Below, one piece after another: positions 3,477-61,783 of a DNA stretch of 64,000 nucleotides. A model generated the notes under the pieces. The model ran no database searches, was not told the DNA's origin, and saw nothing but the letters and a program-made list of their open reading frames with translations. A program made the translations under genes and the position numbers. Every line of letters begins with the position of its first letter. Position 1 is the stretch's first letter. The stretch comes from Antedon bifida (lineage: Eukaryota > Echinodermata > Crinoidea > Comatulida > Antedonidae): positions 5,157,501 through 5,221,500 of the forward strand of contig OY727093.1 of the NCBI GenBank assembly GCA_963402885.1. The letters are read 5' to 3'.

Positions 3477-3576
3477 GATGCTTGCCTAAGGCAGAAATCA
3501 AAAGAATTCGACGAAACGCAAAGAATAAAATCACATTAAATTATTTGGTTTTAAAAGGCATGATCAACAACAATTC

Positions 3577-3648
3577 AGGTTCTACCGAGACTTGAACTCG
3601 GATCACTGGATTCAGAGTCCAGAGTGCTAACCATTACACCATAGAACC
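3577..3648 (-). tRNA. tRNA-Gln(CTG), copy 21
   Basis: Intact cloverleaf, anticodon CTG. The downstream sequence is TGAATTGTTG, so the T-run terminator present in other units is destroyed. Confidence 0.88.
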
Positions 3649-3748
3649 GATGCTTGCCTAAAGCAGAAATCAAAAGAATTCGACGAAACGCAAAGAATAA
3701 AATCACATTAAATTATTTGGTTTTAAAAGGCATGATCAACAAAAATTC

Positions 3749-3816
3749 AGGTTCTACCGAGACTTGAACTCGGATCACTGGATTCAGAGTGCAGAGTGCT
3801 AACCATTATTACACCC
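3749..3816 (-). pseudogene. broken tRNA-Gln(CTG), copy 22
   Basis: The T-arm and anticodon arm are recognisable (loop CTCTGAA), but one anticodon-stem base is changed and the 5' end is scrambled: the 5' strand of the acceptor stem (GGTTCTA) is lost and the D-arm is shifted. It cannot fold as a tRNA and marks the right edge of the array. Confidence 0.9.
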
Positions 3817-20622: not shown

Positions 20623-27221
<6,599 letters not shown>

Positions 27222-27417
27222 TACACAATTTTTATTCTCATATTAAAAATACACGATTATTCATACGGCTGCCGTTTACGAATTGACTGTAGTTTTTACG
27301 GTACTATACTTTACTACTGACACTTGTACGTGTAAATAGAATCCCCACTTGGACGAAACCATTATTTTTCCCACACACGTTTTGCTAGCCATCCGCAATT
27401 TTTTATAAGGAAAAAGA
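27222..27417. promoter_or_regulatory. bidirectional promoter between SELENOO and MARS1
   Basis: Only 196 bp separate the two divergent start codons. No TATA box or other motif stands out on either side. Both are housekeeping genes, so a shared dispersed-initiation promoter is the simplest reading. Confidence 0.6.
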
Positions 27418-37038: not shown

Positions 37039-37241
37039 TTAAGCCTCAGCTTGAGCTTTCTTATCTATCTGCACTGAAGAAGTTCCACTTTCATATAATT
37101 GATTATCTATACCACTCATAGCTTTGCTGTCATCAAATGAGAACTTCTTGCGCTGTACGATGAACCAAGCGATCATGACGAGGGCAAGCAGAAGCACACA
37201 TGATGCCAACGTAATGCCAACAATTCCTCCAGGGCTCAAAC
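37039..37241 (-). other. last exon of the lectin gene: transmembrane helix and tail
   Basis: A helix of about 23 hydrophobic residues (IVGITLASCVLLLALVMIAW and on) is followed by QRKK and a polar tail of about 38 residues ending QAEA. One Tyr (QLYES) is present, but no clear YxxPhi or FxxxxY endocytic motif. Confidence 0.85.
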
Positions 37242-40200
37242 CTAAACATAATAATTTAAATTATTTTAAAACAATATGCTGATTTCTTTTTACTGTGTTA
37301 TTCACATATTCTCTTCACATTTTTATTTTAATATATATATACAAATTAATATATTAATGATATTTGAATTATTAAGGACTTTTAATTTGCAATCACCTAC
37401 GACCTAAGATCTAATTGTATAATAATTCATTGAGTGCTTGAAGGGATATTGGGAGGTGCTTCCTTACTCCATTCTTTGATGCAGTTTAAACAGATTATAG
37501 GCCACCGATGAAATATATAAGTAGGTTGCTAAATTCCTATTATTTGTGTGTTGAAAACAAGTTACAATGATGATGATGATGATGCAGGTGTATGGAGGAG
37601 TAGCTTGGTGGTCATGATACTTAATGATAATTTAAAGTAGTATACATTTCCAGGACACTAATAAATATAGATCCCTCTAAGAAGTTATGTACTCTAATAG
37701 CAATGAAGTAGGTTGGATGTAATGATGCTTACCTACCAACTTCATAGTCTTCTGTTCCGATGTCAGGATTTTTTTCACGCCAAGAAAATTTTTCAACCAA
37801 AAAGCATTCATTTGGTATATTTATTTATAGTAACTTTTTTCTTTGAACCAATGAAATTGAAATGAATGAAACTACGTTTACACCATTACTGTACTACATA
37901 TAAATTTATTAATTCTTGAAGATTATTAATACAAATTGTATATAGCATATAATATGGAGTAGCTTTGGTGGCGACGAATACTACAAATTCCAGAGTCTTG
38001 AGTTTGAATTCTATTATGATGCTGATATTTTTTTTTTTTGACAAAACAATAAACTCTGATTATATTTATGTAGAGCATTAAATCTAGCTTATGGATATGG
38101 AGTGAGAGCAGATAATGAACACACAATACAAGCAATTTCTAATGATATCTTAAATATATACTCTAGCCTATAGATATATTTTACCTGTAGTTGGTTCCTT
38201 ATTTCCATCCTTGTTAGTTGGCGTTATAGGTGGATTTGGTCCATCGTCTGTCGAACTCACTGGTGCTCCTGAAAACAACAAAATATTGTCTACATTATAA
38301 AACTAGTGTGACAAAATAAGTGTGATGTGCCCAAATATGGTAGTGATATGACATCATCGTGTCCATATATGGGCACATCACATTTAGTGTAGACAGAGCT
38401 TAATGTTAAACTGTTCTCTACAACGTGGTTCTCAATTTATTCATACGATTGATACAGAAATAAGATTCTTAATATTAACACCTATAATAAAAAATACCAC
38501 GAAAGATTGGGCAGGGAGGGACCAGTTCCATGGTTTGGCTATATATTTCCTCCATGGTTTAGAGATATATACCAGTCCCATGGTTTGACTATATATTTCC
38601 TCCATGGTTTAGAGATATATACCAGTCCCATGGTTTGGCTATATATTTCCTCCATGGTTTGGAAGTATACCAGTCCCATAGTTTGGCTATATATTTCCTC
38701 CATGGTTTAGAGGTATACCAGTCCCATAGTTTGGCTATATATTTCCTCCATGGTTTAGAGGTATACCAGTCCCATAGTTTGGCTATATATTTCCTCCATG
38801 GTTTAGAGGTATACCAGTCCCATAGTTTGGCTATATATTTCCTCCATGGTTTAGAGGTATACCAGTCCCATAGTTTGGCTATATATTTCCTCTATGATTT
38901 AGAGGTATACCAGTCCCATAGTTTGGCTATATATTTCCTCTATGATTTAGAGGTATACCAGTCCCATAGTTTGGCTATATATTTCCTCCATGGTTTAGAG
39001 GTATACCAGTCCCATGGTTTGCCTATATATTTCCTCCATGGTTTTGGTCACCTGAAAGCATTTTCACTGAGTTGGTACTGAACACCCAGAAAGCTTTGTC
39101 AGGCACAAACCAACAACCATCAATGACTGCAAGAAGAGGATTCCTAGGCCTGATAGACCAAGATGATGACAGATAACTTTAAAATGTCATACCTTTAAGA
39201 ATTTCACAAACATAAGCTTGGCCATCGTTACAGTTCTCATCATTCCAATAACCAAACTGTGGGTACAATTCAACACAGTTTTCATGCTTTCCGTTGTGAG
39301 TCATGGTTGGTTGTCCATCATCCCAGAATGTGTAATCTACTCCAGTACCATCAGACCACATAAATCCACCTGAAACCAAGTCCATCAGAATATTAATACT
39401 TTCTTGCTATTGAATAAATTAATTTTAAAAAAAACCATAATTTTCCATGTCGACTTAGCATTTTCAGGTTTTGTCATAATCCAAAAACATAAAGAGATAT
39501 CATTTGTCTGATAAGATACAATAGTTAATATATATAATATTAAGAATTTTTGTAAAATAAGATACATTAGTTAATAAGTATAATATTCCTAAGAGACAGA
39601 TGTCTAACCTACCACTGTCTGATCTAAACAGTCCAACCCAAACGCTTTTGCCTAAAAAGCTCTGCACATTAGCACGAATGAATTCATTTTGAGCTCGGCT
39701 GTGAATGCTGGCAAGATGACCTGCATGGTTCAATGAGCAGGCAAACTCTGCCTCTGCCCACGAGATGGAGGTGAAAGAGACGCCAAAGAAGTAGCAGTGG
39801 CTTCCATAAGGAACCCATTCATCAGTTGGGCAGGTGCCTGGGCGTGGTGCAGGTGTAACTGGCTTCTCAGCTGAAACAAGGCAAAGATATTAAACATTTA
39901 TTAATTTCTATCAATGGTACAATACAATAATAATAATTAAACAATAACGACAATCCCATTAATAGAGGATCTTGCAAGAAGAAATTACTTGTCACGCAAG
40001 ATTCATTAATGAAAGGGTGGGAAATAAAATGTACATTCAATACATAAAAAAATGGGTTTTTTAAAGATATTATAATGTATGTGGTTATTTCAGTACATAT
40101 ACAAAGAAACAAACAGTTGACATTGAACATTCTGTCTGCAGGCATAAAGGGCCTTTCACACCTGTTACGGCACAGTTTCTGTCCGGCGCTCCACACGGCT

Positions 40201-43200
40201 ATGTGCCAATCGATAGATGGATTTGCAGGTGTGAAAGATCCTTTAGTCCTTTGTCATATATTGACCAACTGCCTGCCAACTTTGCAATTGTACAAAATGC
40301 GGTGGACTTAGAGATCATCAACTGCTGAAATTCTGCGACACCAGTTTTATAAACTTACCAGTAGTAGTCTTGCAGAGAGGGTAGTGAAGGCTTGTGCAAG
40401 TAGCATCCTCCCAGGTACCATCATCATTCACTCTGACACATCCCTCGCCAGGTCCCTTGCTAGGTTCATTCTCTGCCCAGTTAGTGTACCAAATTGGCCA
40501 TCCATCTAACCACATATATTCTCCTTCCACCTACAGAAAGGAAACATGAATAATAATTATAGTTAAATAAAAGCTATAAAGGACAACATCAGTGGGCAAT
40601 CAAGACTAATGATTAACCTTGGACTTCAATTAAATTTCTTTTGTTTTGCAAAAGTACTATATCCATATGCATGAAAACAGAAACAGCAAAGCCTTTTCAA
40701 CACTACAATAAATTTCTATAGAAATAAGATTAGATAACATTTTATATGTATAAGAGTAAGGGATAACTAGATCGTTAGGTTACAGTGCTCGATACCATTG
40801 GTAGAGTTAAATATATATCAAAAATAAAACTTTGTTACTTCATAGTACTTTATTACAGAACAAATTTGTTTTGTATGCTAACAGGGCTAACACACTCATA
40901 AAGTGAAAAATACAAACATAACTGGCATAGCTCTACACAATACATTTCAATTTTACATTATGTAATTTTTTTTATGCGTGTTAAATTTCATGTTGAAGAA
41001 AGGGAAACTATAAATCATATCTTAAATTAATACCAATTTTAAACCCACTACAGTATTTAACAAAAAAATAAACATACTTTCATATCAATCATGCCTATCC
41101 AAACTGGCTCATTGTTATTTCCATAAACAAGTGATTCCACAAAGACTTGTTCATATCCATCAGGAATGCTCGCCAACTCTGAATTCTGGTTCTCACACAG
41201 CTGCCTGGCTGAAGCAAAGTCACGCTTTGTGGTGTCCATCATGTAGCAAGAGTCACCATACTTTCGGAAATTTGGTTGACCACAGTATTCAATATTGTCA
41301 GGATTAACGGGAAGTGTAGGGTCTGAAATATATCAATTATTAGGTGTAATTTAAGAATCTTTTGTTCTTTATTTCTCGCCATTTCTCATTTCAGTTTCTG
41401 AACTAACCTGTCTAGCTTCTACTAACGTAAAATATAGGCATATATATCATGCTTATATACTTCATTTCAAACTAAAGAAATCTCTCTCTAGTTTGACAAT
41501 AAAAGTATGATGTGCTCAAATATGGTAGTGATATACCCAAATATGGTAGTAATATGACATCATCATGTCCATATATGGGCAAATCATATTTTTTTGTAGA
41601 CAGAGCTTAACAGAATAAGAACTGTCTGTATTGTTTGACTTACCTAGAGGTTGTTGACAGACATATGCATTTAGACTGCTACAGTCAACATCATCCCATT
41701 TACCAGTCTGTTCAGCACTGTTCATCATCTTTACACAATCACTTGAGCTCTGTTTGGTCAGAAAATTAGAGGATTTAAGTTAAAAATGGTCCTAATGGCA
41801 TATAAATGGGGGTGCAAAGCATTCCTCTTCGGGCAATATCATGCAATTTACTATTATTTTCAGCATGATTCTACACTGGCGACATACTTATGTGAGTGAC
41901 CCATCTTCATCCAGTAAAAATATATTTATGTACACAACTCTAAACTTGGTTTTATGAATGCCAGGATCTGCCCATACTCTCCTCCTCTGGTTCCTGTCTA
42001 CACCCTATTTACACAGAGGTAACAGTAAGCCAAAAACTGTGTAGCTTGTCCCATGTAGAATCTGTATCTATCCTCCGCGGAAAAACCAGTCGTCCGCTCT
42101 GAGCTTTGTGTAAATGGTCATAGGGAATAACATAATAACAGATTCTATGTTTTTATTACCGTTACCGCTCGTCTGTGTATATTGACCTATAGTGACCACG
42201 TTTTATATAGTTATTCGCTTAGTAAGGTAATTGCAGTATTTTCTGTATCTTACCCCATCTGGTAACACAACTCCACTCTTTGGTTCATACATAGCCCAAG
42301 CCTCAAAGTCTAGGCTTGTACCATCAACCCAGGCAAATTTACCATCAGTATGTCGGTCGTTTAGACCAGTCCAAATATCAGTGTTTGCTGTTTTTATATA
42401 TGTTGACAAATAAGCTGAAATGACAACATTTTTAATGATAAATCCACATATTAAAAGTCAAAAGTCAAAAGTCTAACCCGCCCAGTGATATACTGAAATT
42501 TAATTAATTAATTTGAAACGATAAAGATGAGGAAATCTGTGAGAATGAGAAAAAGTCGCCCCAACCGAGATTCGAACCCGGAACCTTCTGCTTGATATGC
42601 AGATGTCCTAGCCCTTAGACCACTGGGGCTTTCATGGTTCAATCTCGATTGGATAGCAACTCTTTAACACTCTCGGTGTGGTACAGCGGAACAGCACTAG
42701 TCCCTCAATTGTACACACGCGCACCAGAGATCAAATTGATATCAGCTTATCTATCAGTATTATTCACGAAGCAGGATCATATGAAGTACTATACCTTGTA
42801 GTTCTTTGTTATGAATGGTGACCAGATCTGCATTCTTTGCGAGACACATGCTGCGAGCATCACTCCATTGGAGTCTGTCAGCAATTTCCGTTCCATACAC
42901 TCTATAGCAACGGTTGCTGTGTTTAACCCAGCCATTCAGGCAGTTTCCAGTAGGTGGTGGAGTAGGAGCGTTTGTGATTGGCTTGATATTATCCTCCGCC
43001 TTTTTGCAAACGAACGGACCAGGAATACCACAAGCTTGATCATTCCATGCAGCCACTTTAATTTAAATATCACATATACATATTTCGTTAAATGCATTTA
43101 TGGTTCATACTGCATTAACAGACAATTGTGTTCTCCGTTTTGTAAAATCTTAAATAAACTCTAGTTTACATAGATTTTGCAATCAAATGCCTGTAACGTA

Positions 43201-46200
43201 GGCCTATCACTCTTTATAATCCGTATGTTTTATTATTTTCTCATATAAACAATGTAAACACTTTCAAGTAACGTTTCAATCCTTATTATCTGTTTGTTAT
43301 CTGCTATTTTCTTGTATAGATACTGTAACCAAACATTTTCATCATATAGATACTGTATTTAAATACCTGCATTACTCTTTATGATCTGTGTTTTTCTATA
43401 GAAGAATTGATTGTTAATTTTTGTATTAGTCTCTAATTGTATTGCAATGTATTATTGAAATGAAAGATTGAAAATAAAATAAAAAATTAGTTTATTTTAA
43501 TGTTGTTTAAATCACTTGATTAGCTCTCTTTAAAAAATCTACCCTTACAATGAAAAAACACCTTAATGTGACAATTTGCAGAAGTCTCATATAATGCTAA
43601 ATGGTTGTCATGACAAAACACAACACTTACATTTTTGTACTTCCAGTTCAACACATTGCTCTGCTCCATTGAAATCATTGGGTTCGTTATTGGCCCAGAA
43701 TATGTAATCAAATGGCGTACCATCACTCCACCTGTTAAGAAATTGTATACATTTTTTAAAATAAAAGCGTTGTGAGGTGTTTTCCCAAATGATCGCATGA
43801 TCAAAACGGTACGATCAACTACCGTTCATGTTCCCAACTAATCATCCATTCATAGAAGTACTGATGAAAAAGTCAACAATCTGTGGTGACTATAGAAGCT
43901 GTACTCGCATTCATTTTTTGAACTTCAGAATGTTTCATAAACAAAGAATCAACTTAAAATAAATCATTTTTACTAAACAATTTTTACTAAAAAGTCAATC
44001 TGTGGCAACTATAGAAGCTGTACTAAAGCATTAATTTTTTTAACTTTAGAATATTTCATAAGCAAAGAATTAACTTAAATAAAACAGAAAAAAAAATGTG
44101 CATACTTATAATCTCCTCCAGCTGCTTGTTCTCGTAGACCAATCCAGTAAGACCCAATGACTTTGCTTACCTAGATTATTAGATTATAATACAAAAAGAA
44201 AGCCAATAACATAAAATAAATGAGATAAGCAAAAGCAAAAAAAAACCATAAAGAATTCTGTCAACAACTTATTATAAATTATTACTAATATTATGATTTA
44301 CTTTCATCTCATTATCTTCCGATACTGTGCAGGACCTCTTTTGAGTATAGTCACACGTGGGTTGGTCACATTTATGCATGCATTTTATATTGGTTTGCCA
44401 TAAATGAATACTTCACCAAAATATAAAAAATCTACAAAAATGTGCTTTTAATAAAACATAAATATTTCTTACAAGTCTAAAAACGTAGTTCTGCTCAAAT
44501 ACATCATGAATTGATGCCAAGTGGCCGCCTCTACTTTTACAATAATCCTCAGCATCTTGCCATCCTTTACGTCCGGTACCATAGGCTGGACTCACGTAGT
44601 AACAATATGGTGATCGATAGACCCAGCTATTGTCTGACGGACACGGTATAGCTTTAATAAAAAAAAAAATCAATCTTTATTATTATATTCAATGTGATAG
44701 GTTAAAGCTCTGTCTACACTATCAAACTAGTTTGACAAAAAAGTGTGATGAGCCCATATATGGTAGTGATATCCCAAATGTGGTAGTGATATGACATCAC
44801 ATCACATTTTGTTGTCACATAAAGTTTGATAGTGTAGACAGAGCTTTATTTACTTGGATAGATCAATAAATACCAATTTTTCAGTTTAAAACAAACCTAA
44901 AATAAAATATTAGCCAGGTCCGTAGCCAGCTTGAGGCTGACGAGGCAAAGAATAAGTTTGAAACACCCACATCCTTCGGAAAAATATGCATAATATAATT
45001 TATATTCTGACAGCTCATTAAAAGTTAATTTGTTTTAATTAATTTTTAATTAATTAATTTAAAACATCATCTTACGTGCATCTGGATCAGGAGATGGTGT
45101 TATAGGAGTAACTCCTTTGGCGATTTTACAGATCCAGTTTCTGACCGTTGAGCAATCCATATCATTCCAGCCTCTCTGACCATCAAAGAACATCTCTACG
45201 CATTCCTCAGATCCACTATCATTAGGTTCACCATCTCCCCAGTTTGTGTAACCAACAGCTGTACCGTCACTCCATTCATAGCCTTTGGAAAAGACAAATA
45301 AAATACAGTAAATTAAAGAATTTTATAGGCATACACATGTGCATATTATTTCATTTTTTCATTTCATTAATTTTATTCATCAAAGAGAAATATCATTAAA
45401 AAGAATAGAATAAAATACATTAATAGATGAAAAAGTCATCAACAAAAAGCTCACATGGTTGATGAACTAAAAAACCAAAAAAAGTACATATGAAAAAGTT
45501 ACAGAAGCATCGGCAAAAGACATTCATTTTTTAAGTTCCTACTAGGTCGCAACACAAGTAATTTGACCAATCAGAAGCAATGGATTATTCAAACTGTCGC
45601 TTGTCATTGGTTAATTCATTTACATCATTGCGTTGCATCCTAGTGGGAACCAAGCTTAAATAACAAGGAAACTTACCGCCCTCAATGGTACGGTCGTTTA
45701 GACCAATCCAGTAGCCTAACCAGTAAGCGTTTTCCTGATCACTAAAGCAATATAACAAATATTCAAAATTAATAAATGTTACTTATTTCTTAATAGTGTA
45801 CCACAATTACTTAGTGATAATCTTAAATCTATTGGAGGACAATATGTTATTCAAAATAATTTGCTATACTTTTCAGTTTATAAACCAAATACAAAACATC
45901 TCTTTTGTGATACACTACCAACATTACCTATATACTACTAAAAATAGTTCATACTAAACTCTCAATGTGTGTACAAAAACTGAAGTAAAAAGGGAAATTG
46001 AAAAATAGTCGTAATTGTTTCTGAGTTGTTGTTTCTGTATCTGTTAAACCAAGCTGTAAGTGGCTGATTTGTTTCTGCTGTTGGTTCTGGTTTTAAAAAT
46101 AAAATTAAAAAAAACTTACATAGGTGTAAATCTACCAAGTATATAAGCCTCCTCTGCAGCACTATGGAAGCTAGCAAGATCACCACCCATTTTTAAACAA

Positions 46201-49200: not shown

Positions 49201-52200
49201 TATAATGCACTATTATAATTATATTATTATCATACTAATGAATATCAAATAGTGTTTCAAAAACATAAATACTCCACCTTGTTGAACAAGATTCAACAGG
49301 AAACTATTCTCTCCTACATTGTGGACTGATGCCAATTCAGCACCTGCATAGCGGTTGTGGCATTTCACACTGGAAGCATCAAAATCGGCCACTGTGTTAT
49401 CAGCATAGTAGCAATAGTTATCGTATGGTTTCCAACCACTGGGGCATCCATAGTATGCGGGTAGTGTAGTAGGAGGGGCATCAGTTGGCACATTCATATC
49501 TAGTACAAAATCAAGTATAATAATACATCTTTAATGAGTTAATTTCTGAATTTAGGACTCTACACTGAGTTGTTCTCTTTCAAATAACATAATAAAAGAT
49601 AATAAATAGAAGAAAACAATAAGGAAACAGAAAAAATGTAAGAAAATATTTTCGAAAGAAATAGATTTTATGTACGACACTAGACAAACATAACAAATTA
49701 ACTGTTATGTTTGTAAATGTCTGTCTGATTTTTATTAGCAAATTAATTTTAAAAATGTCTTTTTATCAAACCAAAAAACTTAGACGGTAAAAAGGTTCAC
49801 GAAAAAACTTCTTCAGAAGATTTGACTTTTACCATCTACGCTTTTACTTCAGTTTGTTAAAAATAAATTTAAAAATTCATAACCTCGTGTACAGTCCCTC
49901 CCAATACCAGACTCTCTGAAAACCAGAAACTCTCCCAATATCAGACTTTTCTTGAAGTCCAAACATAACAGTCCCAAATTCATTTTAACCATTAAAAACA
50001 CATTCCGAAAACCAGACTTTCCAGAAAACCTATTTGGGTATTGGTAGAGTTGACTGTATATATTATTTAAATACCTCTTTCATAATGGTCGTAAATATCG
50101 CCAGTGTAAGTTGGAGTAAGCCCGCCAGCACTATCCTTGTTGAAAGAGCTTAATTGACATGTTTTCTGATTACGATTGTAATCAAAACTTAAACATGTGA
50201 AGCCAGTTCCCTCAATACACCTTTTGGCACAGTCACTTGGATAGACATCCGTCAGCACAATGTCGTCCTTGCCACTGATGAAAGCATAATGGTAGGAATC
50301 GAAGTACTTGTTGATGTATTCTGTAATTAAAGAAAAAAAAATTTGAAAGAATGAGTTTGGCATAAAAAAGGAATGTGAAAGAACATGGCAGAAGTGGAGG
50401 CCCAATTGGTGGGTAGAAAATTCCATAATAACATTTATATTACTGTGCTAGGCATACTAACATGTACAAACTAATGAAAACTCCAATAACGTTTAACAGA
50501 ATAAATTTAATTTTTTTTTTTATATTGTTAATATAAACAATTGAAAATGCATGTAGACAATTGTAATATTCAATTGAAACAAAGACATTGTGAGTGTCTC
50601 ATTGAAAAATAAATTAGTTTGGAGTTTATATTACAAGTATTGGTAATAAAGAAAAAAACAGTTAAAAAAAACAGTAAAAGTATTCATTCAGCAGAAATAC
50701 TGTTACTTATACTGATCTTATTAGATCTCGTCAGTGTAGCTCAGATTTTAACATAAAATTGAAAAACATAATTGGCTCAATATATAGCATGAGTCAGGTA
50801 GTACAGTATGTGGAACATGGTAAACTGATTATGAACACCAGAGTACACAAACTTAACATGACCTATGACATTTTCCTTACTATCTTTTTTGCAGATATAT
50901 CCAATAAAATTCTTTTCACATTTATGATCATTCCAGACTCCTTGATTTACAATTAATTCTCCACAATTTTCACCACCTGAAAATGGCCCATCGTTGTTTG
51001 GTTCACCTGTAAACAAATTATATGTAAATTACTTTAAAGGCTTGGTCAACAAGAATGCTATCATATACTGTTTTTTATTTATATTATTATTTTATAGAAA
51101 GTTGCATACACATACCACTCTTCCAGTTAAAGTATACAAATGGTTCCTTATCGGTCCATTCCCAGCCACCCTCAGTCGTCAGATCATTGGCTCCTATCCA
51201 CATTGTAGGCTCAGTGACACCTCTCAAAAGAGCTATTTGAAAAAGTACATCAAAATAAATAAATACAGTACTCTGTGATCAAAATCATGAAAAAGATAAT
51301 TATTATTATGTATTAAAATAAGAATTAAAAAGAATTTTCAAAGAAAAAAATTTAAATAAAAATATTTAAAGATGTATTGTCGTCTTAAAAAATTAAGATT
51401 TTACAATTTTTTTGATGAATATGCCATTTTATTGTCACATAATAGTTATTCGCTTTGACCAAAAACCGGATCGAAAAAACAATTATTTTCCTGAAAAAAA
51501 TGTAATTTAAAGAAAAAAATAATCTTTATTTGTTCATGTTTTTTGGGGACAATACATCTTCAACTAATTCTCTTTTATAATTAGCTACTGTAGTTTATTC
51601 AAATTCTTCCTTTGGTTTATTTATGGGAATGGTTTAGATAATCTAACCAATCAGAGCATTTTTAGTAACAAATGTAACACGTTGATTGGTTTGATTTCCA
51701 GTTACTTACATATAAGGAAGTTTTCTTCTTCATACGATGTAATACTAACAAGGTCACCGCCTTCAATCAGACACTGGTCTCTTGCGCCAGCCCAGTCCTT
51801 ATAGTCAGATGGTCTTAAAAGGTAACACTTGCCAGAGGCACTATCATACACCCAATCAATGCCACAGCGGGTGTCAAAAGCACCTGATAAAAGTTTCAAA
51901 ATAATCATTCACTTATATTTTATCAGATTTGATAAGAATATACACCTAATAATATTTTTTAAAGCTATGTCTACATTATAAAACTAGTTTGACAAAAAAA
52001 GTTTGATGCGCCTAAAAAGGTTAGTGATATGCCCAAATATGGTTGTGAAATAACATCCTCCTATCCATATATGGGCACATCACATTTTTTTGTCACTTAA
52101 AGTTTGATAATATAGACAGAACTTATATGTTAATAGCTATCTCAATGACTATCTAAATATTATATTCATACAGTATGTAAACAACATAAGCCTATTAAAA

Positions 52201-55200
52201 ATTTTTTTTTTTGTGAAACATACCAGTTGGGAGAGGTGTTGCTGTGTGTACAGTATTGTCATCAGCTGAAATAATAACCATAATAATATTAATACAACTG
52301 AAATACTATAGCAAGGCTGTTTCTAATAAAAGAATATTTCGAGAGAAACACAATAACCTGGAATACTTACTTTTAGGCTTTTTGCAGACCCAACTTTCTT
52401 CTCTGCTACACGTCAGGTCATTCCACATGCCTACTTTGTAGTAGTTAATCTCCAGATGAACACAGTCCTCATTGCCAGCATTGTTAGGCTCACCAGGTGC
52501 CCAGTTGGTGAAAGTGACCTAAAACAGTATCAACATGGCCAATTAATCATATTTAAAAACCTATTTTTTAGAGAATACCCGATGAATATTCATTAATGGC
52601 CATAATGACACCTATTTACAATGAATAGGGTGTCTCTGTATATAGGCATATCCATTGAATTTAGAGTCTCTTCACCGTTGTTCACTGGCTACAATAATCG
52701 TTGCATAATAAATGTATTGGTAACCAAATATTTTTAAGAATTATTCATAGTAAATAGGTGTCATTATGGCCATTAATGAATATTCATAGTTTATTCTCTA
52801 ATTTTGTTCTTTATTATTTGGAATATGATACTCTAAAAAATGTATGTATATGTCTTTAATACCCAAACACTCAGGACGATAGCCTAAAAATTGACTATTG
52901 TGCGAACAAACAAAGCACATTTAGCAAAATTCTATTTTGCCAAGTAATACAATACTGTACTCTTAGGTTGGTTATTTTTCATTCAATACAGTTTATATGG
53001 TATTTTTCTATACGTTTCTTATTGGTACAGTTTATATATTACTTATCTATAATTTGAATTTCCAAAAATAATAAAGATGAAATGAAATAATTACCGTAGA
53101 TGCATCTGTCCATTCAAAATTTCCTTCGCCATTAGCGTCATGAAAACCAATCCACATGTTGTCCTTGGCAATGTCAGCACGTACTAAACAAAATTCAAAT
53201 AAAGTATTAATTTAATTTTAATGTCAGATAAAACAAAATAAAATTTTTAATGAAAATGTTGATCTATCAATTATGTTTGCATGGTAGATTTTTTAGAAAG
53301 AAGAAAAACTTTCCCACTGGCTGTCTCTGTAACTCATATGGGTATATGTATATTGTTGTGTGCTCATATTTTGACTCTAAGTATATTACTTGCTTTGTTT
53401 GCGTGTAGGTTTTTCTTGCTTGTATATAAGTTTGTTTACATAAGTTATCATTAACTTAATTTTTTTCCATGCTTCAGAATAATCGATATACAGTCAACAT
53501 TTCCTAATATCGGACATCTTTGGGCCGGCCAAATATCTGGTTTTCCGGAAAATCTGATATTTGGAATGTGGTTTTAATGGTAAAAAGGAATTTGGGACAT
53601 TGGTCCTCAAGAAAAGTCTGGTATTGGGAGAGTTTCTGGTTGTCAGAGAGTCCGGTATTGGGAGAGTTGACTGTATATGTTGACATCACAAAGGGTTATT
53701 AAAATCTTTAGTTATCTGCATATTTGATATTGGCCGAAATATTAAATAGCTCTCTGCATGCTTTGATTTTTTTGCTGTATACAAATTTGAAAAGATTTTA
53801 AATATTTGCATATTTACCAGACAAAAATGACTGTTCATCGGCATCTAAAATGCTTGACAACGATGCCTGCATTGATTCACACGTAGTCTTAGCTGCACTC
53901 CATGATTTAGGGTTCGTTCCAAAGTAATAGCAATTGTCTCCAAACAAAGCCCAGTTAGATGGACAACTTCCAATTTCTAGCACAATAAAAAAGAAATATT
54001 AATTCACTGTGCAGATATATTTGATTCAATATTGTTATATTTCTGGTATTATACATAATAGAAAATTTGAAATTATTATTCCAATTATGAGATGTAGATT
54101 ATTGTTATGTAAATATTACTTCTATGTGACTTCTAAATCAACATTTTTTTTTATGAAAGGTTAATAATTTAAAACATTATTTTTTTAAGAACATTTTTTA
54201 AAAGTTTGATTCACACCATACATGGCAGGCACTTAGTACTTGCACAGTGTGAACCAAGGTTAAATAGAAAAAACAATCATTTACCTTTGGATGGAGGTAT
54301 TGTTTGCACTGCAGCTCCTGTCAAAATAATGAAATATTTGAGATATTGATAATTTACAATTATAAATTCATAATTATTAGTTCATGTCATACTAAGAAAG
54401 AACAGTTCCCATTTGTCAATGTTATAATATAATTAAATTTGGACAAACCTGCTTTAATCTTGCAAATAAATGCTTGAAGAACGTAACAATTCTTTGTATC
54501 CCATGCTGCAGTAGCAGAGTCTAAAAAAACAATCAAAGCAAAAGTTCTTGTTACGTATTAAGTACCAACCAAAGCAAAATTTCTTGTTACGTATTAAGTA
54601 CAGTACTGTACTGTACTGTATTAAGGCTTATTACAACCATACCGAATACATAGTATGGATTTGTAGACAATATCTCAATTTCTCATCTTCTCCGTGTTTT
54701 ATGATGGTCTAAAGCTGTCTACACTATAAACTAGTTTGAAAAAAAAAGTGTGATGTGCCCAAATATGGTAGTGAGATATACCCAAATATGGTAGTGATAT
54801 GACATCATCATGTCCATTAGGCACATCACATTTTCTGCCACATAAAGTTTGATAGTGTACAGCTTAAAACTCTGTTTGCACTTTTATGGATTTTGGTCTG
54901 CACTGCTTGGCATTCAGTTTAATTTTATGTATCATATTTTATTCAACAGTAGCAAACAAATGAACCTACTACTCAGCAAGTTACTTATTAATCTTTACAA
55001 AAAAATATTTACCTGTATAAATACTTCCACAGTCAGTTTGACCTTTGGTATTGCTAGGCTGACCTGGGTTCCAAAAATTAACTGTTATCGGTGCACCTTC
55101 AGACCATACAAAATTGCCATCACTTGCAACATCTATTTAAAAAAAGAAAAAAATCATTACAATGTGTTAAACATTATAATATAAATACATAAAATTAGTC

Positions 55201-58200
55201 TACTTTACTTATACAGTAGAAACCAACTTTCCCATGAAATGAACTATGGCCAACCCATATTAAGTGGCACACCTATTAAGGAGACCACTTTGTTGGGTCC
55301 GAAGGTATAAAACTGTAATAATTATGTATAGCTTAGTATGTGGCAATATCCAATTAACACTGTTCATTTTCATGGCATATCTTAAGTCAGTAAGAAGCAA
55401 TTGCTGGGTCGTGTTAGTTAACCATGCGCATGTGAAGAAGTTGAGACTATTTCACGACACAATTTTGGTGGTTTCTGGGTCCAGATGACGACGACAACAC
55501 ATTAATTAATGCGTAGGTCGTCAGACATCTACTGACAGTTACAGAAAGTGTCTTCATTTATTTATTAGTATCTGATGATCTTTACTACAAATACTTTTTG
55601 TCTGGGATCAACTGCTTTCTCTGTCAAAGAAACTGCATGACTATTGTACATACCTGACATGCCGAACCAAACATCGGTCCGTCCAGCTTTTTTCAGTTCG
55701 GGTAGTTGACTGGTAATAAACTCATTCTCACGATCCCTAAAAAAACAGATCTATAAAGTAAAGCAATTCAGCACTGGAAATCAAGGGTAATTAAATTATT
55801 TAATAGATTAATATCATATGGTATAAATAGAATTGTCTGGGATTTATGCACTTGTCAATTGTATGACCCACTATACGACCCCGGGAAGAGGTGTGTCATT
55901 TGTCCGATGTGCGTCATACCTTATAAGTTATAAATACCATGATGCACCCGTGCGTCAAAAATGTGACTTACCTTTAGGTGACCATGACGCACCCATTTTG
56001 ACGCACTGTGACCATGTTGTGTATGATATTTGAGTGGTAAAGTGATGGACATTGACACACTATTGTTCATTGATGTGACGTACCTTCTAGGTTTTTTGAC
56101 GCACCCCTGCTTCAGTAAATATTTGTAAATGACACACCCATGACCCACCTCTCCCGGGGGTCGTATAGTGGGTCATACAATTGACAATTGCATTAGTGCA
56201 GTACTGATTTGACAGTATTTGGATAATTTGCGGAAGTTATAAAATTTAAAGTGAATGGTTTGCGTGTATTAACAGCAGGCAACTTACGAAAGTATTGATG
56301 TAAGGTATCCGCCTTGAGCTTCACAGTAATGTTTTGAGTCAGTCCAGGTCTTTGGACTATTTGCATTGATTTGGTAACAGTTCCCATCAAATAGTCTCCA
56401 GCCAGTGGCACAAATACCTAGAACACACATAAATATACTGTAAAAGCTAGTGAAGGACCCCGAAAGTTGAAACTCAACATCATCATTTGTTTTACTATAT
56501 TTTGTACACTGCTACTCCTACTAGGGTCTACAATTATAGCCACTAGCCTGAGGACTAGGCCTACTAAGTAGGACTACTTGTAGTAAGTTATAGGCTGCTG
56601 AGCATAGGCTGTTGCTGGAGGCTAGCTAGCCAGCCAGGTCTAGGAGGCCTAGGCTAGTAGGCTAGGCTGGTAGGAAGGCCTAGAAAGGCCTAAAAACAAA
56701 TTATAAAAAAACATACTGTACCTTCGGGTCTTTGGCAAATAAAACTTAATGTCTGCGAACATGGTGCAGTACTCCATTTACCAACACTGTTAACTGTGTC
56801 AAGAACTTCAGCACAATTACCACCTGATGCAAAATATCTAAGAAAAAAGTAAAAAACTAAACCTTATTTCTTCCTTTTAAATTTCGTGCGTGTGTGGTAT
56901 TACACACGTGACATGCTGCCAATCAGTACGCCCTCTGTAGTTTAAAAACTTCTGAAACTTCAATTACGGTTGGTTCCCGGCGGCGGTGTTCAGAAATAGA
57001 ACAAAACTACGTACGTCAATTTAAAATATAAATAAAATGAATCTTAGAGATTCCTTACTTGTTGTTGGGTTCTGTAACTGCCCAATTATTATATGATCCA
57101 AGAGATGTATCATCACTCCATTTGTAGTCACCCTCAGTGTTACTATTCTATATTTAAAAAAAAAAAAGCAAAATGATACTTATTAGTAATTACAAAGGTT
57201 CTTAGTTATTATAAGCAGGTTATAAAAACAAAAGATCGATTGTGTGTATTTGTTTTACTAATTAAACATGTAGGCCTGTTATACAGATTAAGAATAAATG
57301 AAAACTAATTGGCTTACAGAATCCGACAATCCGATCCAATAGGTCCGTCGGTAACGTGACGTTAGCACGTTTAGGTAATCCTGTGTGTCTTGGCTCTCAA
57401 CTTTGACTAACTGTCCGCCAACTAATTCACATTCGCTTGCTGCTCTATCCCATGATCGCTGTTCCTCAACAAATAAGTAACATTTGCCGTTGGAGTTTGA
57501 CCATCCATTTGATTCATCGCATTTTATTTCAACATCTGAATAATTTATAAGTATGCAGTTTATTACACATCTATTATATTTATCTATATAAAACACATTA
57601 TATTTATCTATATAATAATTATAATCTCGAGTCACCCACAACTAACTGTGGCCGGTCATCACCATATACAGTATTACGGTAGTTATACACAGTAGGATAA
57701 TGTATTTCTATGTTGATATCTGTATATCTGTATATATCATCATCCAATATCGTCACCATCGTCGCCGCCGCTGTCCTAAAATTCCTGAACGTATAAACGT
57801 CAAAATCTTGTTATCACCACAACTAATATCACCATCATCAACATCATCATCACATACTTACTTTGTTTTCTTGAGCATATATACGGTAACGGTGTAACAC
57901 AGTTCTCATCATTCCAAAGGCCAGTATCCGCCCTTACTTGCACACAGTCTTCTCCTAAGAGATTATAATCATTTGGTTCGCCTGGCTTCCAACTCCTTTA
58001 TTGATTTAGAAAAATTAAAAGAAAGAACAAATGAGAACTCTCACTTGATAAATAGATAAATAGAACAAACAGTAATAATAAGAAGGAATGTATATCTTTT
58101 TCTAGAATGTCATGACATTATCTTGACAAATTGATGTTTATTTAAACATTTATAGCTTGATAATATTGCAGATGTGAAAAGGGTTAGAATATCAACGACA

Positions 58201-60852
58201 TAGACCAGTGGAGAATCATTTTATTCACTGCCCCCAAACGTAAGTAAGTTAAAAAACATTATTTTGATGTTGACTTACGCCTGAGATTGATCCAAAGCTG
58301 TTCCATCAACCCATTGGAAATTGCCCTCATTCGATGTATCATGTAATCCTATCCAGAAATCTCGGTTAGAATCTTTTATTAAACCACTTAAAAAAGTCTA
58401 ATTCATAAAAAAAAACAAGAAGAATGATTAAAGTACGTTAAAGCAGATGTGTGATAAATGTTCAAAATACCTCACCCATCTCCTCTCTCCTCTCTCTTCT
58501 CACTAGACTTGCCTTTTGTAGTTATTGTTTTTTTTTTATGTTAGTCCATCAGTCGACGTTTCGATTTTCGTCTGAATACTATACTACGAATATACGTATT
58601 ATACGTATGAAATGCCATATGTGCCAAAATATTTATCTTTTTACTAATTTCTGTCTAGAACATAGATTAATTCCTCCCCTTCATAATTCCCTTTTTTTTG
58701 TAACATTTGGTTGTACCTGTAATTGGAAGTTATAGCAATAAAAAAAACTTAGGCCAGACTATAAATAATGCTTTTTTTGATTTTTACTTTATTGTTGTTG
58801 TTTTTTTTTTATTTTATTTGTCAATTAGACGAAAGAAAGAAGTGTTTGTTTTTTCACTCACTTCAATTAAATAATAATATTTATTTATTTATCTCTGTAG
58901 GACCAAACTTAAAGCATTGGTTTAATGCGTCCTCCTCACACAATTATATTTACTAATTTATGTTCTATTCTGTATGTTGTAATGTGTGAAACAATAAACT
59001 TGAAACTTGAAATAGACAAGCGAAGCTTACATTAACGTCTTGTGACGGTATAATGGCAAGATCCGCTTGTAGATTCTGACAGTTTTTTCTAGCTTCATCC
59101 CACCATTTTAAATCGGACTTGATCAGGTAACACGTATCACCGTACTGTTGCCAACCTTGTCCACACTGCTGACTCAACACTACAAAAAGGGTAACAAATC
59201 ATGAGGGATGACAATGCATTTTACTTATTATACATTGATATTGACTGATATCACATAATCCAGTCTATATTATGTATACAAAACACTCTTTAATATATCT
59301 TATTGATTACATCATCTATCATCTTGTATTGAAGTAACCTATTTGACTAATTTGTTACATATTGCTTTAATTAAAGATGTATTGTCCCCCTGAAAAAATA
59401 ATTCTTCAACATTTTTTTTTCAATATACCATTTTAATGTCACCTAATAGTTATCCACTTTGACCAAAAATTGATCGGGAAACAAATGTATTTACCTAAAA
59501 AACTGTAATTTAAAGCAAAAATAGTCAAATTGGCTGCCAGCCAATGGGTTTTTGGTTGAATTTAACCATTTATTTTGTCATTTTATAAGTAAAAACATTC
59601 ATCATTTTTTGGTTTTTTTTCTACGGAAGTGATTGACTTTATTGAAACTACAAAATAATCTATTCAAAGTCTGATTTTATTAATCTTCAAGTTTACATCT
59701 TTAAGCAGTATTATATAAAGTAGAATCGACTACAGTGGGTAATGATATCAAAACGTTTTTGTTAAAAGCCTTTATTGATTTGCCTTCAATACATTATCGT
59801 TATCTATATTTTGACTATTTGTGATTATTATTATCACTTGCTCTAAACTGCGCATGCTCGATGCTTCCCTACAACTGGTACGACAGATATCTTATCCGAT
59901 TAGAGAGGGAGGAAGTTGGAACGGCGAAATATTGACAAAATGCGCTTTTCAGTTTGTTTACATTCCGAATGCAAGTCTAAAGTTTTTGTTTAAACATTTT
60001 ATTTTAATATCCTTATTACAAGTTTCTTATAAATTTATAATCTTTATTCAAATATGAACTATAATTGTAAAAGGCGTATAGGCCAAATACATATTGGTAT
60101 CATACCAACAAATTTTAGTTTATTTTTTTCGCGTCTATTTTATTATGAAGCAAAGATCTAAAGTTTTTCAAATTGTATGTGTCAAAAAATGTGATGTGTC
60201 CATATATGGATATGATGATGTCATATCACTACCATATTTGTGCATATTACTACCATATTTGGGCACACAAAGTTTAATAGTGTAGACAGAGCTTAATACC
60301 ACTTTCACATCGCCTAGCAACATCCTCCGATGTTTCTCCGGAGTTTTTAATCACGGTGTTTAAGTGGGAAAAGGGGTCCAAGAAGCAAGAAACCAAGAAG
60401 AGTTCCTTGTTCGTAAAAAAAATGGCCTAATATATATACTTATAAACATAGCTACAAAGTTAATGATATAAAACATATACACTGGTAACCTTTGAACGAA
60501 ATTTAGAAAGGAACTATTTGTTGTATAAGTAGGCCTATTAGTATTACTGTAACACGGACGTACGTGTTAATTTTGTTAAATCGTTGATTTAGCAATACTT
60601 ATATAACAAGTTATTATGGAATAGTTCTTGCTGATTATTTACTATAATATATTTTTTTTTAAATATTAACATTGCGTTATACGCTTTCTGTACTCCGTAT
60701 ATAGGCCCTTCTTTAGCTTTTACTCAGCCTACGTTTTACTATACAGAGTCAAAACAGTTAATTTTAAAAAGTGACGTTAAGATATTAGGTCTACATTTAA
60801 AAGTCTTACCTCCATACAGAATTGATGAGAGAATCAGTATCCTTAGTATCAT
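37039..60852 (-). CDS. membrane receptor with 12 C-type lectin domains and a PAN-like domain
   Basis: I assemble 41 exons with GT-AG junctions and consistent phase, totalling 5799 nt or 1932 residues. Order: signal peptide (exon at 60852-60810), CTLD1-5, one PAN/apple-like domain (exon 50320-50075), CTLD6-12, a Pro/Thr linker, a transmembrane helix and a tail of about 38 residues (37241-37039). Each CTLD shows the WIGL-type core and paired cysteines. Mannose-type EPN plus WND Ca2+ ligands occur in CTLD1, 4, 5, 8 and 9, and galactose-type QPD plus WND in CTLD6. CTLD2, 3, 7, 10, 11 and 12 have altered ligand residues. The layout recalls the mannose receptor/PLA2R family (8-10 CTLDs), but the ricin-like and fibronectin II domains are absent and the PAN-like domain is extra. 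Likely role: cell-surface glycan recognition or endocytosis, by inference. A tandem paralogue lies upstream at 61784. Introns are loaded with MITEs and a minisatellite. Confidence 0.88.
37588..38040. mobile_element. degenerate tRNA-SINE fragments
   Basis: Three decayed stretches (about 37597, 37690-37780 and 37955-38040) share AGTAGCTTGGTGG-like heads and a GATGTCAGGATTTTTT-like end with the SINE at 25065. In an intron of the lectin gene. Confidence 0.45.
38284..38401. mobile_element. MITE family 1, copy 8
   Basis: Right end AGTGTAGACAGAGCTTAA; the left end is diverged (TTGTCTACATTATAAAAC). Lectin gene intron, just upstream of linker exon 38268-38185. Confidence 0.8.
38517..39046. repeat. 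minisatellite, 48-bp unit, about 11 copies
   Basis: The unit contains CCATAGTTTGGCTATATATT, TCCTCCATGGTTTAG and AGGTATACCAGTC. Early units are 50 bp, later ones 48 bp. Because 48 is a multiple of three, one plus-strand frame stays open (38635-39081), but it is antisense to the gene, in an intron, and not a believable protein. Confidence 0.92.
39193..39870 (-). other. CTLD12 (exons 39870-39613, 39369-39193)
   Basis: Residues about 1693-1837. WVGLFR, QPT and WNDENC: partial Ca2+ site. Followed by linker exon 38268-38185 (Pro/Thr/Asp-rich, 28 residues). Confidence 0.82.
40147..40252. mobile_element. short MITE with AAGGGCCTTTCACACCTG end
   Basis: About 22-bp imperfect inverted ends (AAGGGCCTTTCACACCTG and CAGGTGTGAAAGATCCTT) with TA on both sides; 106 bp in all. 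Lectin gene intron. Confidence 0.75.
40359..41322 (-). other. CTLD11 (exons 41322-41078, 40530-40359)
   Basis: Residues about 1554-1692. WIGMID, EPS and WED: altered ligands, built from only two exons. Confidence 0.82.
41475..41608. mobile_element. MITE family 1, copy 9
   Basis: Right end TGTAGACAGAGCTTAA, left end diverged; the core ATATGGTAGT motif appears twice. Lectin gene intron, close to exon 41749-41644. Confidence 0.8.
42001..42190. mobile_element. MITE-like element with GGTAACAGTAAGC end
   Basis: Outer inverted motifs (CACAGAGGTAACAGTAAGC and GTTACCGCTCGTCTGTG) flank an interior sharing GCTTGTCCCATGTAGAATC with the complement of 22040-22070. Confidence 0.6.
42470..42632 (-). mobile_element. 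tRNA-derived SINE
   Basis: On the minus strand, a tRNA-like head (GCCCCAGTGGTCTAAGGGC, then GGTTCGAATC) with a well-paired anticodon stem (TCTGC/GCAGA) runs into CTTTTTCTCATTCTCACAG and AT-rich tail sequence. The same tail occurs alone at 23672, so this is a SINE copy, not a tRNA gene. Confidence 0.7.
43080..43500 (+). mobile_element. possible LINE 3' UTR fragment
   Basis: An AT-rich block ends in TTATTGAAATGAAAGATTGA followed by AAATAAAATAAAA, like the tail of the LINE at 31720. No coding part is visible. Confidence 0.4.
43865..44085. repeat. tandem duplication of about 115 bp
   Basis: Two copies share AAAAAGTCAA, ACTATAGAAGCTGTACT, AATATTTCATAA/AATGTTTCATAA and AAAGAATCAACTTAAA-like segments. 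Lectin gene intron. Confidence 0.75.
44704..44847. mobile_element. MITE family 1, copy 10 (best-preserved ends)
   Basis: AAAGCTCTGTCTACACTATC and its exact complement GATAGTGTAGACAGAGCTTT bound a 144-bp element. TA borders both sides if the ends are taken as AAGCTC and GAGCTT. Confidence 0.92.
45531..45659. mobile_element. MITE-like element, same family as 5929
   Basis: Ends CTACTAGGTCGCAAC and GTTGCATCCTAGTGGGAACC are inverted; inner TTGACCAATCAGAAGC matches the element at 5929. Confidence 0.7.
46345..46680. repeat. tandem duplication of about 170 bp touching a splice donor
   Basis: Copies at about 46360-46515 and 46540-46680 share CTAAACATTATA, AGGCTTACTGTTA/AAGCTTACTGTTA, AGTACATAACC and AAATTAGGTAAATATT, ending in TCTAACCAAGT. 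The right copy includes the real GT donor of the CTLD7/8 exon (end 46670), so the left copy carries a second donor-like site in the intron. Confidence 0.75.
46780..48085 (-). other. CTLD7 (exons 48085-47970, about 47358-47210, first part of 46884-46670)
   Basis: Residues about 967-1090. WIGLSDT is present, but QPG and WID replace the Ca2+ ligands. A Pro/Thr linker follows within the same exon. Confidence 0.8.
48117..48431. mobile_element. MITE family 2, copy 2
   Basis: Left end AAAGATATATCTTCCCTC, right end GGGGACAATACATCTTTA, with family motifs CTTTGACCAAAAACTGGATC and TTGTCTG between. Ends about 30 bp from the acceptor of exon 48085-47970. Confidence 0.8.
48508..49499 (-). other. CTLD6 (exons 49499-49278, 49124-48964, 48615-48508)
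   Basis: Residues about 803-966, starting with a Thr/Pro linker. WIGMSD, QPD (QNQPDNW) and WNDNVC give a galactose-type Ca2+ site, the only one in the protein. Confidence 0.85.
48751..48927. mobile_element. MITE family 1, copy 11
   Basis: Right end GATAGTCTAGACAGAGCT, left end eroded; the core ATGTGGTAGTGATATG block is present three times, making it longer than most copies. Confidence 0.82.
49890..50058. mobile_element. MITE with TACAGTCAAC-type ends
   Basis: TACAGTCCCTCCCAATACCAG-like left end (position 49890) and TTGGTAGAGTTGACTGTA right end; internal ACCAGAAACTCTCCCAATA. Same family as 53490, with Tc1/mariner or pogo-like termini. Confidence 0.75.
50075..50320 (-). other. PAN/apple-like domain exon
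   Basis: One exon, residues about 721-802, without the WIGL or WND signatures of a CTLD. The pattern DCAKRC, FTCLSFDYN, KTCQLS is that of PAN/apple domains, which bind proteins or carbohydrates. It is symmetric (phase 1 at both ends), as expected for a shuffled module. Confidence 0.75.
50881..51883 (-). other. CTLD5 (exons 51883-51710, about 51232-51116, 51006-50881)
   Basis: Residues about 582-720. WIGANDL, EPN (SGEPNNDG) and WNDHKC: full mannose-type Ca2+ site. Confidence 0.85.
51367..51562. mobile_element. MITE family 2, copy 3 (internally shortened)
   Basis: AAAGATGTATTGTCGTC and GGGGACAATACATCTTCAA ends at a spacing of 196 bp; the middle third of the longer copies is missing. Confidence 0.8.
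51961..52124. mobile_element. MITE family 1, copy 12
   Basis: AAAGCTATGTCTACATTATA and TTTGATAATATAGACAGAACTT ends; the core is moderately diverged. Confidence 0.82.
52569..52801. mobile_element. MITE with TAGAGAATACCC-type ends
   Basis: About 45-bp inverted ends containing GAATATTCATTAATGGCCAT and AATGACACCTATTTA, and their complement, enclose a 230-bp element in the intron between the second and third exons of CTLD4. Confidence 0.85.
53490..53675. mobile_element. MITE with TACAGTCAAC ends
   Basis: TACAGTCAACATTTCC and GGGAGAGTTGACTGTA ends; the interior (TTTCCGGAAAATCTGATATT) is the inverted counterpart of the element at 49890. Confidence 0.8.
54711..54866. mobile_element. MITE family 1, copy 13
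   Basis: AAAGCTGTCTACACTATAAAC and TTTGATAGTGTACAGCTT ends, both lacking the same few terminal bases; two ATATGGTAGTG motifs in the core. Confidence 0.85.
55210..55310. mobile_element. pogo/Tigger-like transposon end
   Basis: ATACAGTAGAAACCAACTTTCC with ATTAAGTGGCACACCTATTA resembles the terminus seen at 24893. No partner end or transposase found nearby. Confidence 0.4.
55847..56192. mobile_element. MITE with about 47-bp terminal inverted repeats
   Basis: TGCACTTGTCAATTGTATGA and on through CCCACTATACGACCCCGGGA match the complement at the right end almost perfectly. The 345-bp interior has repeated GACGCACCC motifs. Intron between the first two CTLD3 exons. Confidence 0.9.
56722..57535 (-). 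other. CTLD2 (exons 57535-57318, about 57149-57061, 56837-56722)
   Basis: Residues about 149-289. WIGLSDS and EPN are present, but WND is replaced by WST, so the Ca2+ site is probably incomplete. Confidence 0.8.
57862..59179 (-). other. CTLD1 (exons 59179-59031, 58397-58279, 57995-57862)
   Basis: Residues about 15-148. Starts CGQGW, carries WIGLHD, then EPN (GEPNDYN) and WNDENC: a complete mannose-type Ca2+ site. Confidence 0.85.
58573..58700. repeat. dispersed repeat with TATACGTATGAAATGCCAT
   Basis: ATTATACGTATGAAATGCCA, TATGTGCCAAAATATTTA and CTTTTTACTAAT match the unit at 61248 and the ends of the repeats at 13785-14140. Confidence 0.6.
59371..59705. mobile_element. MITE family 2, copy 4
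   Basis: TTAAAGATGTATTGTCCCCC at the left; the right end is shortened to TTTACATCTTTAA. Full interior with GCTGCCAGCCAATGGG. In lectin intron 1. Confidence 0.82.
60179..60294. mobile_element. MITE family 1, copy 14 (left end eroded)
   Basis: Right end AATAGTGTAGACAGAGCTTAA with the core TATGATGATGTCATATCACT. In lectin intron 1. Confidence 0.8.
60810..60852 (-). other. exon 1 of the lectin gene: signal peptide
   Basis: ATG at 60852 encodes 14 mostly hydrophobic residues (MILRILILSSILYG) and ends on GTAAGA in phase 1. Exon 2 adds VLSQQ before the first CTLD, completing a plausible signal peptide. Confidence 0.75.
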
Positions 60853-61783
60853 TTTGATGTGCTTTTCACTGTCCGTGCCCAATATTTTAAACCATTGGGA
60901 GATTTGATCACCTACTGCGGATTTTGGGGCTGATCTCTGCCTTTACCTGATAACAAAGTTACATTAAGATAAGGATAAAGCCAGGTAAACCTAGGATGGC
61001 CTGGACTTTTGATCATAATTATCATCAGCGGTCCATCTAGTTAATCATTGATATTAGGTCCAAATTCTGTGACATTGTGGTGGTAATTAACACATTGAAT
61101 GCAATATTAATATATGACACTGGGTCTAATTAAACAGACAGCAATTTTTAATGTGCATGTTGTGACATAGAACAGGGAGATGTAACATCTTCCTGCATAG
61201 AATTGCAAAAAGTCTATTTGTCTTTTATATGTTTCAATTTTTTTTAGCTCAAGTATTATACGTATGAAACGCCATGTGCGCCAAAATATTTAGATAATAT
61301 GTCTTTTACTAATATCAAGTCGACACAGAACCTAGACCAGTTGTCATTCATCCTTATATGGTAATATTATCATTGTTTAAAAAGTGTATGTAATCGTCTT
61401 TGGCGATTGTAATATGGGGTGGTAAAACATCAACTATGGAAAAATAAACTTTGATTCAAACTTTTCCAAAGTTACAAAAAGCAACACTACGTTAAAAAGA
61501 GTGTAATGTAAAACAGTTAACAAATAACAAGTTTCATTTATGTCTCTGTGATACATCACATTGAAAAACTACACACGTACGTAAATGTAAATTTTATTGG
61601 TTATCATATATATACAAATTACATTACATTTATTCTTTTAACTATACAGATTATCACCCACAATATTTTATTTATTGTATTCCTTTCGATTTGTTAATAT
61701 TTATATTGTACCATTAAATTACTGTGATACTAGGGTAGAACGATTTCTTATGTACAAGCAATGTTAGTACTGATTTGGATTGC
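60853..61783. other. intergenic region between the two lectin genes
   Basis: About 930 bp containing the repeat with TATACGTATGAAACGCC at 61248-61345. It must hold the promoter of the 12-CTLD gene (immediately above 60852), but no TATA box is clear. Confidence 0.5.
61248..61345. repeat. dispersed repeat with TATACGTATGAAACGCCAT
   Basis: ATTATACGTATGAAACGCCA, GTGCGCCAAAATATTTA and CTTTTACTAATATC match 58573 and the 14-kb repeats. Confidence 0.6.

Follow-up and report, generated by a model that had tools for sequence, protein, structure and literature searches.

A predicted 12-CTLD receptor of the crinoid Antedon bifida with a PAN module inside the array and a single N-glycan sequon in its ectodomain

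The window, the whole stretch of 64,000 nucleotides of Antedon bifida DNA that was analysed, contains a receptor gene on the minus strand, the 3' end of a paralogue of it, and several other loci. Positions 11-3808 (minus strand) hold a tandem array of 21 tRNA-Gln genes with a unit of approximately 172 bp. The array carries 11 TTG and 10 CTG anticodons, and each copy is at most one base off the consensus besides the anticodon base. Because the copies are near-identical, both isoacceptors belong to one homogenised array. An apparently intronless gene with two Ig domains (Pfam), a hydrophobic segment recognised by eye and a long Tyr/Pro-rich tail was found at 10430-12787 on the plus strand. A SelO gene fragment (PF02696, E 3.2e-10) lies at 26754-27242 on the minus strand, and a second likely exon was placed by eye at 26123-26554. 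The reverse transcriptase ORF at 30284-31453 on the plus strand (RVT_1, 5.2e-20) sits amid exons that, by eye, are methionyl-tRNA synthetase-like.

The receptor gene runs on the minus strand from the ATG at 60852 to the TAA at 37041-37039. Next to it, at 61787..63910 on the same strand, lies the 3' end of the tandem paralogue, with the C-terminal part of a CTLD followed by one full CTLD, a stalk and a hydrophobic exon, all with junctions drawn by eye. The full CTLD, which is the last of the paralogue, was 46% identical to CTLD4 and 44% identical to CTLD1 of the receptor, and the rest of the paralogue is outside the window. A dispersed repeat of approximately 116 bp (38292-38407, 41498-41613, 51994-52109 and 62015-62130; 61-82% identical to a reference copy) sits in introns of both receptor genes, and two further families of approximately 100 bp were seen. 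Intron 39 of the receptor gene contains a 48-bp minisatellite (38521-39044, approximately 10.8 copies, 96% matches), and intron 33 contains a tRNA-Asp-like sequence with an ATC anticodon (42557-42629), perhaps the head of a SINE.

In the list of minus-strand ORFs, CTLD exons extended from approximately 59.2 to 39.2 kb. The exons were joined by dynamic programming, with GT-AG junctions only, a free number of exons, and a start and stop fixed beforehand. Scoring used a codon table and splice profiles, both derived from the receptor gene itself, and a bonus on CTLD cores picked by eye. The first run, with a stronger core bonus, produced a chain of 45 exons, one of them of zero length, and 1977 aa. 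Once the bonus had been made milder and the splice profiles trained, the chain had 41 exons and coded for 1932 residues. This independent chain thus arrived at the figures of the original prediction, which had the model close in frame at the same exon number and length. When the bonus was removed, there were again 41 exons, 40 of them identical, and the protein had 1928 aa; the acceptor of exon 18 shifted from 51232 to 51220 (12 nt). The real region scored 618.4, and the best of six shuffled regions scored 5.9, with four of the six yielding a path and two yielding none. The opposite strand, chained from its first ATG, scored -6.6. Poly(A) motifs were too common to be informative.

What was taken for one gene might be two adjacent genes, or might include alternative transcripts that lack the PAN exon. 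When an extra stop and start were made free of cost, the two-gene chain scored 622.8 vs 618.4 for one gene, which slightly favours the split. However, the best split fell inside CTLD5, so that the second gene would start with MWIGAND, and two genes were rejected because this split cuts the domain. The short introns 19 and 20 (just 560 and 575 bp) also argue against two genes, as does hydropathy: no internal transmembrane segment was found in 19-residue windows within the ectodomain, where the highest value was 1.1. A search within introns for the start of a second gene, by ATG-led hydrophobic ORFs, returned 9 weak candidates. As for transcripts without PAN, skipping of exon 20 (246 nt, phase 1-1) would keep the frame, but this exon contributes 19.5 to the chain score. 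Both forms of this explanation are therefore judged very improbable, and a single gene appears to be the simpler reading.

The exon chain and Pfam together confirmed the earlier observation of a 12-CTLD receptor with PAN between CTLD5 and CTLD6. Lectin_C (PF00059) matched above its cut-off five times before exon 20 and seven times after it (E 1.2e-108 and 2e-152 for the two stretches), and the remaining Pfam matches on the CTLD parts were weak and belonged to CTLD-like or Xlink families. Exon 1 (60810..60852) encodes the start ATG and a likely signal peptide (MILRILILSSILYG/VLSQ), which was judged by eye; the N terminus stays under the 1.6 hydropathy mark. Hydropathy over 19 residues exceeded 1.6 in exon 41 only (37039..37241), which encodes the transmembrane segment, a tail with IDNQLY and the stop TAA. 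The stalk exon 40 (38185..38268) is Pro/Thr/Asp-rich. The features of type I topology are therefore a C-terminal transmembrane segment by hydropathy and a signal peptide by eye. The CTLDs are mutually just 25-38% identical, which indicates that the array is old. A recent duplication of CTLDs was rejected on the same identities and on the internal introns, which are mostly at different places. CTLD4 and CTLD5 have one internal intron in common (column 60, phase 1), and a phase 1 intron lies at most 18 residues ahead of 9 of the 12 CTLDs.

The sugar sites were scored by EPN or QPD, E, and WND, which we take to be the mannose-binding-protein rule. The signature of Ca2+ site 2 was complete in half of the CTLDs (6/12; five mannose-type and one galactose-type), although such signatures predict sugar binding just roughly. 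The mannose-type signature (EPN, E, WND) was found in CTLD1 (residues 20-148, exons 2-4, 57862..59179; EPN..GEDC..WND), CTLD4 (residues 440-567, exons 13-15, 52371..53976; EPN..NEDC..WND), CTLD5 (residues 588-720, exons 17-19, 50881..51883, with a 12-nt uncertainty in the acceptor of exon 18; EPN..GENC..WND), CTLD8 (residues 1113-1250, exons 26-29, 45076..46884; EPNDSGSEEC..WND) and CTLD9 (residues 1266-1399, exons 30-33, 42795..44651; EPN..AEQC..WND). CTLD6, which is encoded together with a Pro/Thr linker (residues 821-950, exons 21-23, 48508..49499), carries QPDNWYDGEDC..WND, presumably close to the galactose-type signature. In the other six CTLDs, site 2 was incomplete. It is broken in CTLD2 (residues 154-289, exons 5-7, 56722..57535; GGNC, WST), CTLD3 (residues 292-425, exons 8-11, 54449..56417; QPS, WDT), CTLD7 (residues 964-1091, exons 24-26 with the first residues in exon 23, 46670..48085; GGDC, WID), CTLD10 (residues 1416-1553, exons 33-35, 41644..43055, beginning in the exon that also ends CTLD9; EPK, WDD) and CTLD11 (residues 1567-1692, exons 36-37, 40359..41322; EPS, WED), and CTLD12 has QPT..HENC..WND (residues 1706-1837, exons 38-39, 39193..39870). 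All of these exons are on the minus strand. In human MRC1, the Ca2+-dependent sugar site is described in CRD4 (PMC7949135).

The PAN module occupies residues 721-802 and is encoded by exon 20 (50075..50320, minus strand), which contains four cysteines. PAN_1 (PF00024) matched this exon alone with E 1.5e-11 and 44.4 bits, well over the cut-off of 21.4, so by profile the module, at first called PAN-like, is a PAN_1 match. Among PDB sequences, the exon matched the N domain of HGF (E 1.2e-4) and, weakly, plasminogen (E 0.046). The PAN fold has a helix on a beta sheet and core disulfides. A single-sequence structure model had low confidence (pLDDT 49.4) with the order strand-helix-strands, and a fold search with this model gave no match at E <=0.001. 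The PAN call therefore depends on the profile match. Exons of phase 1-1 are the usual form of shuffled modules. If the PAN exon is read through into intron 20 (50075-50060), an in-frame stop follows after two codons, and retention of intron 20 would yield a secreted CTLD1-5-PAN protein.

From the DNA of this one species alone, we consider it probable that the gene encodes a type I membrane receptor in which an old tandem CTLD array is combined with PAN on a symmetric phase 1-1 exon, and that it is most likely an endocytic or phagocytic pattern-recognition receptor. CTLD1, 4, 5, 8 and 9 would bind mannose/GlcNAc/fucose-type glycans and CTLD6 galactose-type glycans, in a multivalent manner. The degenerate CTLDs may serve as spacers or protein-binding modules, and PAN may add a contact with protein or carbohydrate at a point within the rod. 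The tail IDNQLY would connect the receptor to clathrin uptake. NxxY motifs are common, and IDNQLY has 3 of 6 letters the same as FENTLY of MRC1. A review names the latter as the motif that mediates clathrin uptake in MRC1 (PMC8551360). Taken together, the topology, the relatives and the tail point to the capture and uptake of glycan-bearing particles.

The same domains could also make a receptor for adhesion or matrix instead of an immune receptor, with the CTLDs holding self glycans or proteoglycans and PAN holding matrix or a protease. Half of the CTLDs are without a full sugar site, and PAN modules are thought, in the sources consulted, to mediate contacts with proteins or carbohydrates (PMC5297725, PMC6322860); both points suit adhesion. 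In our judgement, however, capture is the better fit for six CTLDs with intact sugar sites and a tail motif of the uptake type, and a role in adhesion is considered quite unlikely. For the capture receptor, the earlier suggestion that glycan and protein binding are combined in one molecule appears plausible, and its two halves differ in support. The glycan half is supported by the six intact site-2 signatures, and the protein half is suggested by the precedent of PAN modules.

The ectodomain (residues 19-1868, 1850 aa) contains 134 Asn and 268 Ser/Thr, and only one N-x-S/T sequon vs approximately 18 expected. The reversed motif occurred 15 times. At the other spacings counted, with Ser/Thr 1, 3, 4, 5 and 6 places after Asn, there were 17, 22, 20, 24 and 14 occurrences, respectively. 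In 5000 shuffles of the ectodomain, the mean number of sequons was 18.4 (sd 3.9, minimum 5). When residues were permuted column by column in an alignment of the 12 CTLDs (n=5000), it was 12.3 (sd 2.7, minimum 3) vs 1 observed, and the reversed motif was close to its expectation (13 observed vs 11.4 expected). Amino-acid composition and conserved CTLD columns were thus rejected as the cause of the loss by the shuffle and the column permutation. The depletion was noticed first and tested afterwards; because the effect is large, chance is an unlikely explanation. The sole sequon, N1214, is the Asn of EPN in CTLD8. This Asn is a ligand of the sugar site, which no working site can do without. In the paralogue fragment upstream, which at 190 aa is too short to serve as a control, the only sequon is at the equivalent place (EPNES).

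Pieces of four vertebrate relatives (2601 aa) had 24 sequons vs 19.5 expected, which indicates no loss. The counts (expected) were 2 (2.9) for the sugar binder MRC1, whose piece was 425 aa only, 8 (4.8) for PLA2R, 8 (5.5) for FcRY and 6 (6.3) for DEC-205. Two pieces of MRC2 of approximately 240 aa had 2 sequons by eye. DEC-205, PLA2R and FcRY are poor or non-binders of mannose, and mannose binders make up a small part of the vertebrate control, which limits it. The Ig gene within the window, the sole control from the same genome, had 3 forward and 4 reversed sequons in 452 aa.

The N-glycans of invertebrates are mannose-rich. Mannose-rich self N-glycans would occupy the five mannose-type sites of the receptor itself, and sequons may have been purged for this reason, which is the reading we prefer. 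We tentatively propose, as a possibility that is on balance doubtful, a mannose/galactose-binding receptor stripped of N-glycan sites, which would keep its twelve CTLDs from meeting their own sugars, and with PAN making capture two-mode (sugar and protein). The loss could also stem from the way the array must fold or pack, or from another cause apart from self-glycan avoidance, and the chance of this falls only a little short of even. Glycans could be disfavoured in closely packed CTLD rods; the count comes from a single gene, and mannose binders form a small part of its controls. On the other hand, the count is far under both the composition and the column nulls, and pieces of the same fold from four relatives carry ordinary numbers of sequons. 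Among the titles and abstract openings of the literature matches listed, there was no description of sequon loss in a lectin receptor.

We regard the sequon loss as a more useful point than the architecture. It offers a countable prediction, made from sequence by comparing forward with reversed sequons, for all animal multi-CTLD receptors. If the loss is general, multi-CTLD receptors of animals with mannose-rich N-glycans would record the avoidance of self glycans. It also opens the question of whether lectins that bind the N-glycan type of their own host purge their own glycan sites while other relatives do not.

As originally predicted, the protein had no ricin-type or FN2 domain by Pfam. 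Upstream of CTLD1, open pieces of at least 15 aa in the three minus-strand frames of 59180-61760 matched no ricin-type, FN2 or any other Pfam family, a search that a domain cut into very small exons could escape. In comparison with solved chains, all 11 matches of CTLD6-12 with E <=1e-25 were mannose-receptor-family proteins, and FcRY, DEC-205, PLA2R, MRC1 and MRC2 occupied the first 11 places for CTLD1-5, although multi-CTLD chains rank first partly because domain scores add up. CTLD8 alone, compared among single-CTLD chains, matched MRC1 (81.1 and 77.4 bits) and MRC2 (76.7), followed by CD23 (74.3). CTLD4 alone matched CD23 with 103.8 bits over 127 residues, and the best mannose-receptor-family stretch among those listed had 101.3 bits, over two CTLDs. 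Matches of single domains were thus mixed (CTLD8 to MRC1/MRC2, CTLD4 to CD23).

The mannose receptor family is defined, in the sources consulted, with an N-terminal cysteine-rich, ricin-type domain (PMC3269628, PMC12321717). If the receptor were a strict member of this family, its N-terminal cysteine-rich and FN2 domains would have disappeared, and CTLDs and PAN would have been added. The family provides the best solved matches across several CTLDs and also the best match of CTLD8 among single-CTLD chains, and the transmembrane segment near the C terminus with the NxxY tail motif agrees with membership. Against this, neither the protein nor the open pieces upstream contain a ricin-type or FN2 domain, CTLD4 alone is best matched by CD23, and receptors with tandem CTLDs could have independent origins. 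We consider strict membership unlikely. By its sequence, the protein looks like a receptor that works in the manner of an endocytic lectin of the mannose receptor family, yet two defining features (ricin-type, FN2) are missing from it.

Compared with the mannose receptor family (MRC1, MRC2/Endo180, PLA2R1/FcRY and LY75/DEC-205; CTLD group VI), the receptor is alike in its tandem CTLDs, its one C-terminal transmembrane segment, its short NxxY-type tail and its best multi-CTLD PDB matches. It is unlike the family in the apparent absence of cysteine-rich (ricin-type) and FN2 domains, and in its 12 CTLDs (8 or 10 in vertebrate members), mid-array PAN, six full sugar sites and near lack of N-glycan sequons. 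With HGF and plasminogen, it has a PAN_1 sequence match and four cysteines in common, but it is without their kringle or protease domains. The RpMR1-13 proteins of the Manila clam are described as having 1 to 14 CLECT domains each and 2-60 exons, with a proposed immune use, and that study names multi-CTLD proteins 'mannose receptors' by their CTLD content (PMC12321717). The high CTLD number is alike, whereas PAN is absent from the seven domain or region types given there for the clam proteins (PMC12321717). Having more CTLDs than the usual 8-10 therefore sets the receptor apart from vertebrates, but not as a speciality among invertebrates, since clam mannose receptors reach 14 (PMC12321717). 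In nematodes, a CTLD and a PAN-type module are described in one protein, with CW equated with PAN-3 (PMC5297725); the same account of CTLD + PAN/CW proteins describes no long CTLD array with a central PAN (PMC5297725).

The overall interpretation made earlier was thus upheld in part: it stood for the architecture, and its comparison with 8-10 CTLDs applies to vertebrates. The near lack of sequons, the tail motif and the upstream paralogue did not feature in it. The claim that no described receptor has this architecture held in part: more than 10 CTLDs and CTLD with PAN are each already known, and the order of five CTLDs, PAN and seven CTLDs was not among the literature matches listed on architecture, although it may exist unannotated in protein databases. 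What appears to be new, by the literature matches listed, is PAN inside an array of 5 + 7 CTLDs. This architecture adds a PAN-bearing form to the multi-CTLD receptors.
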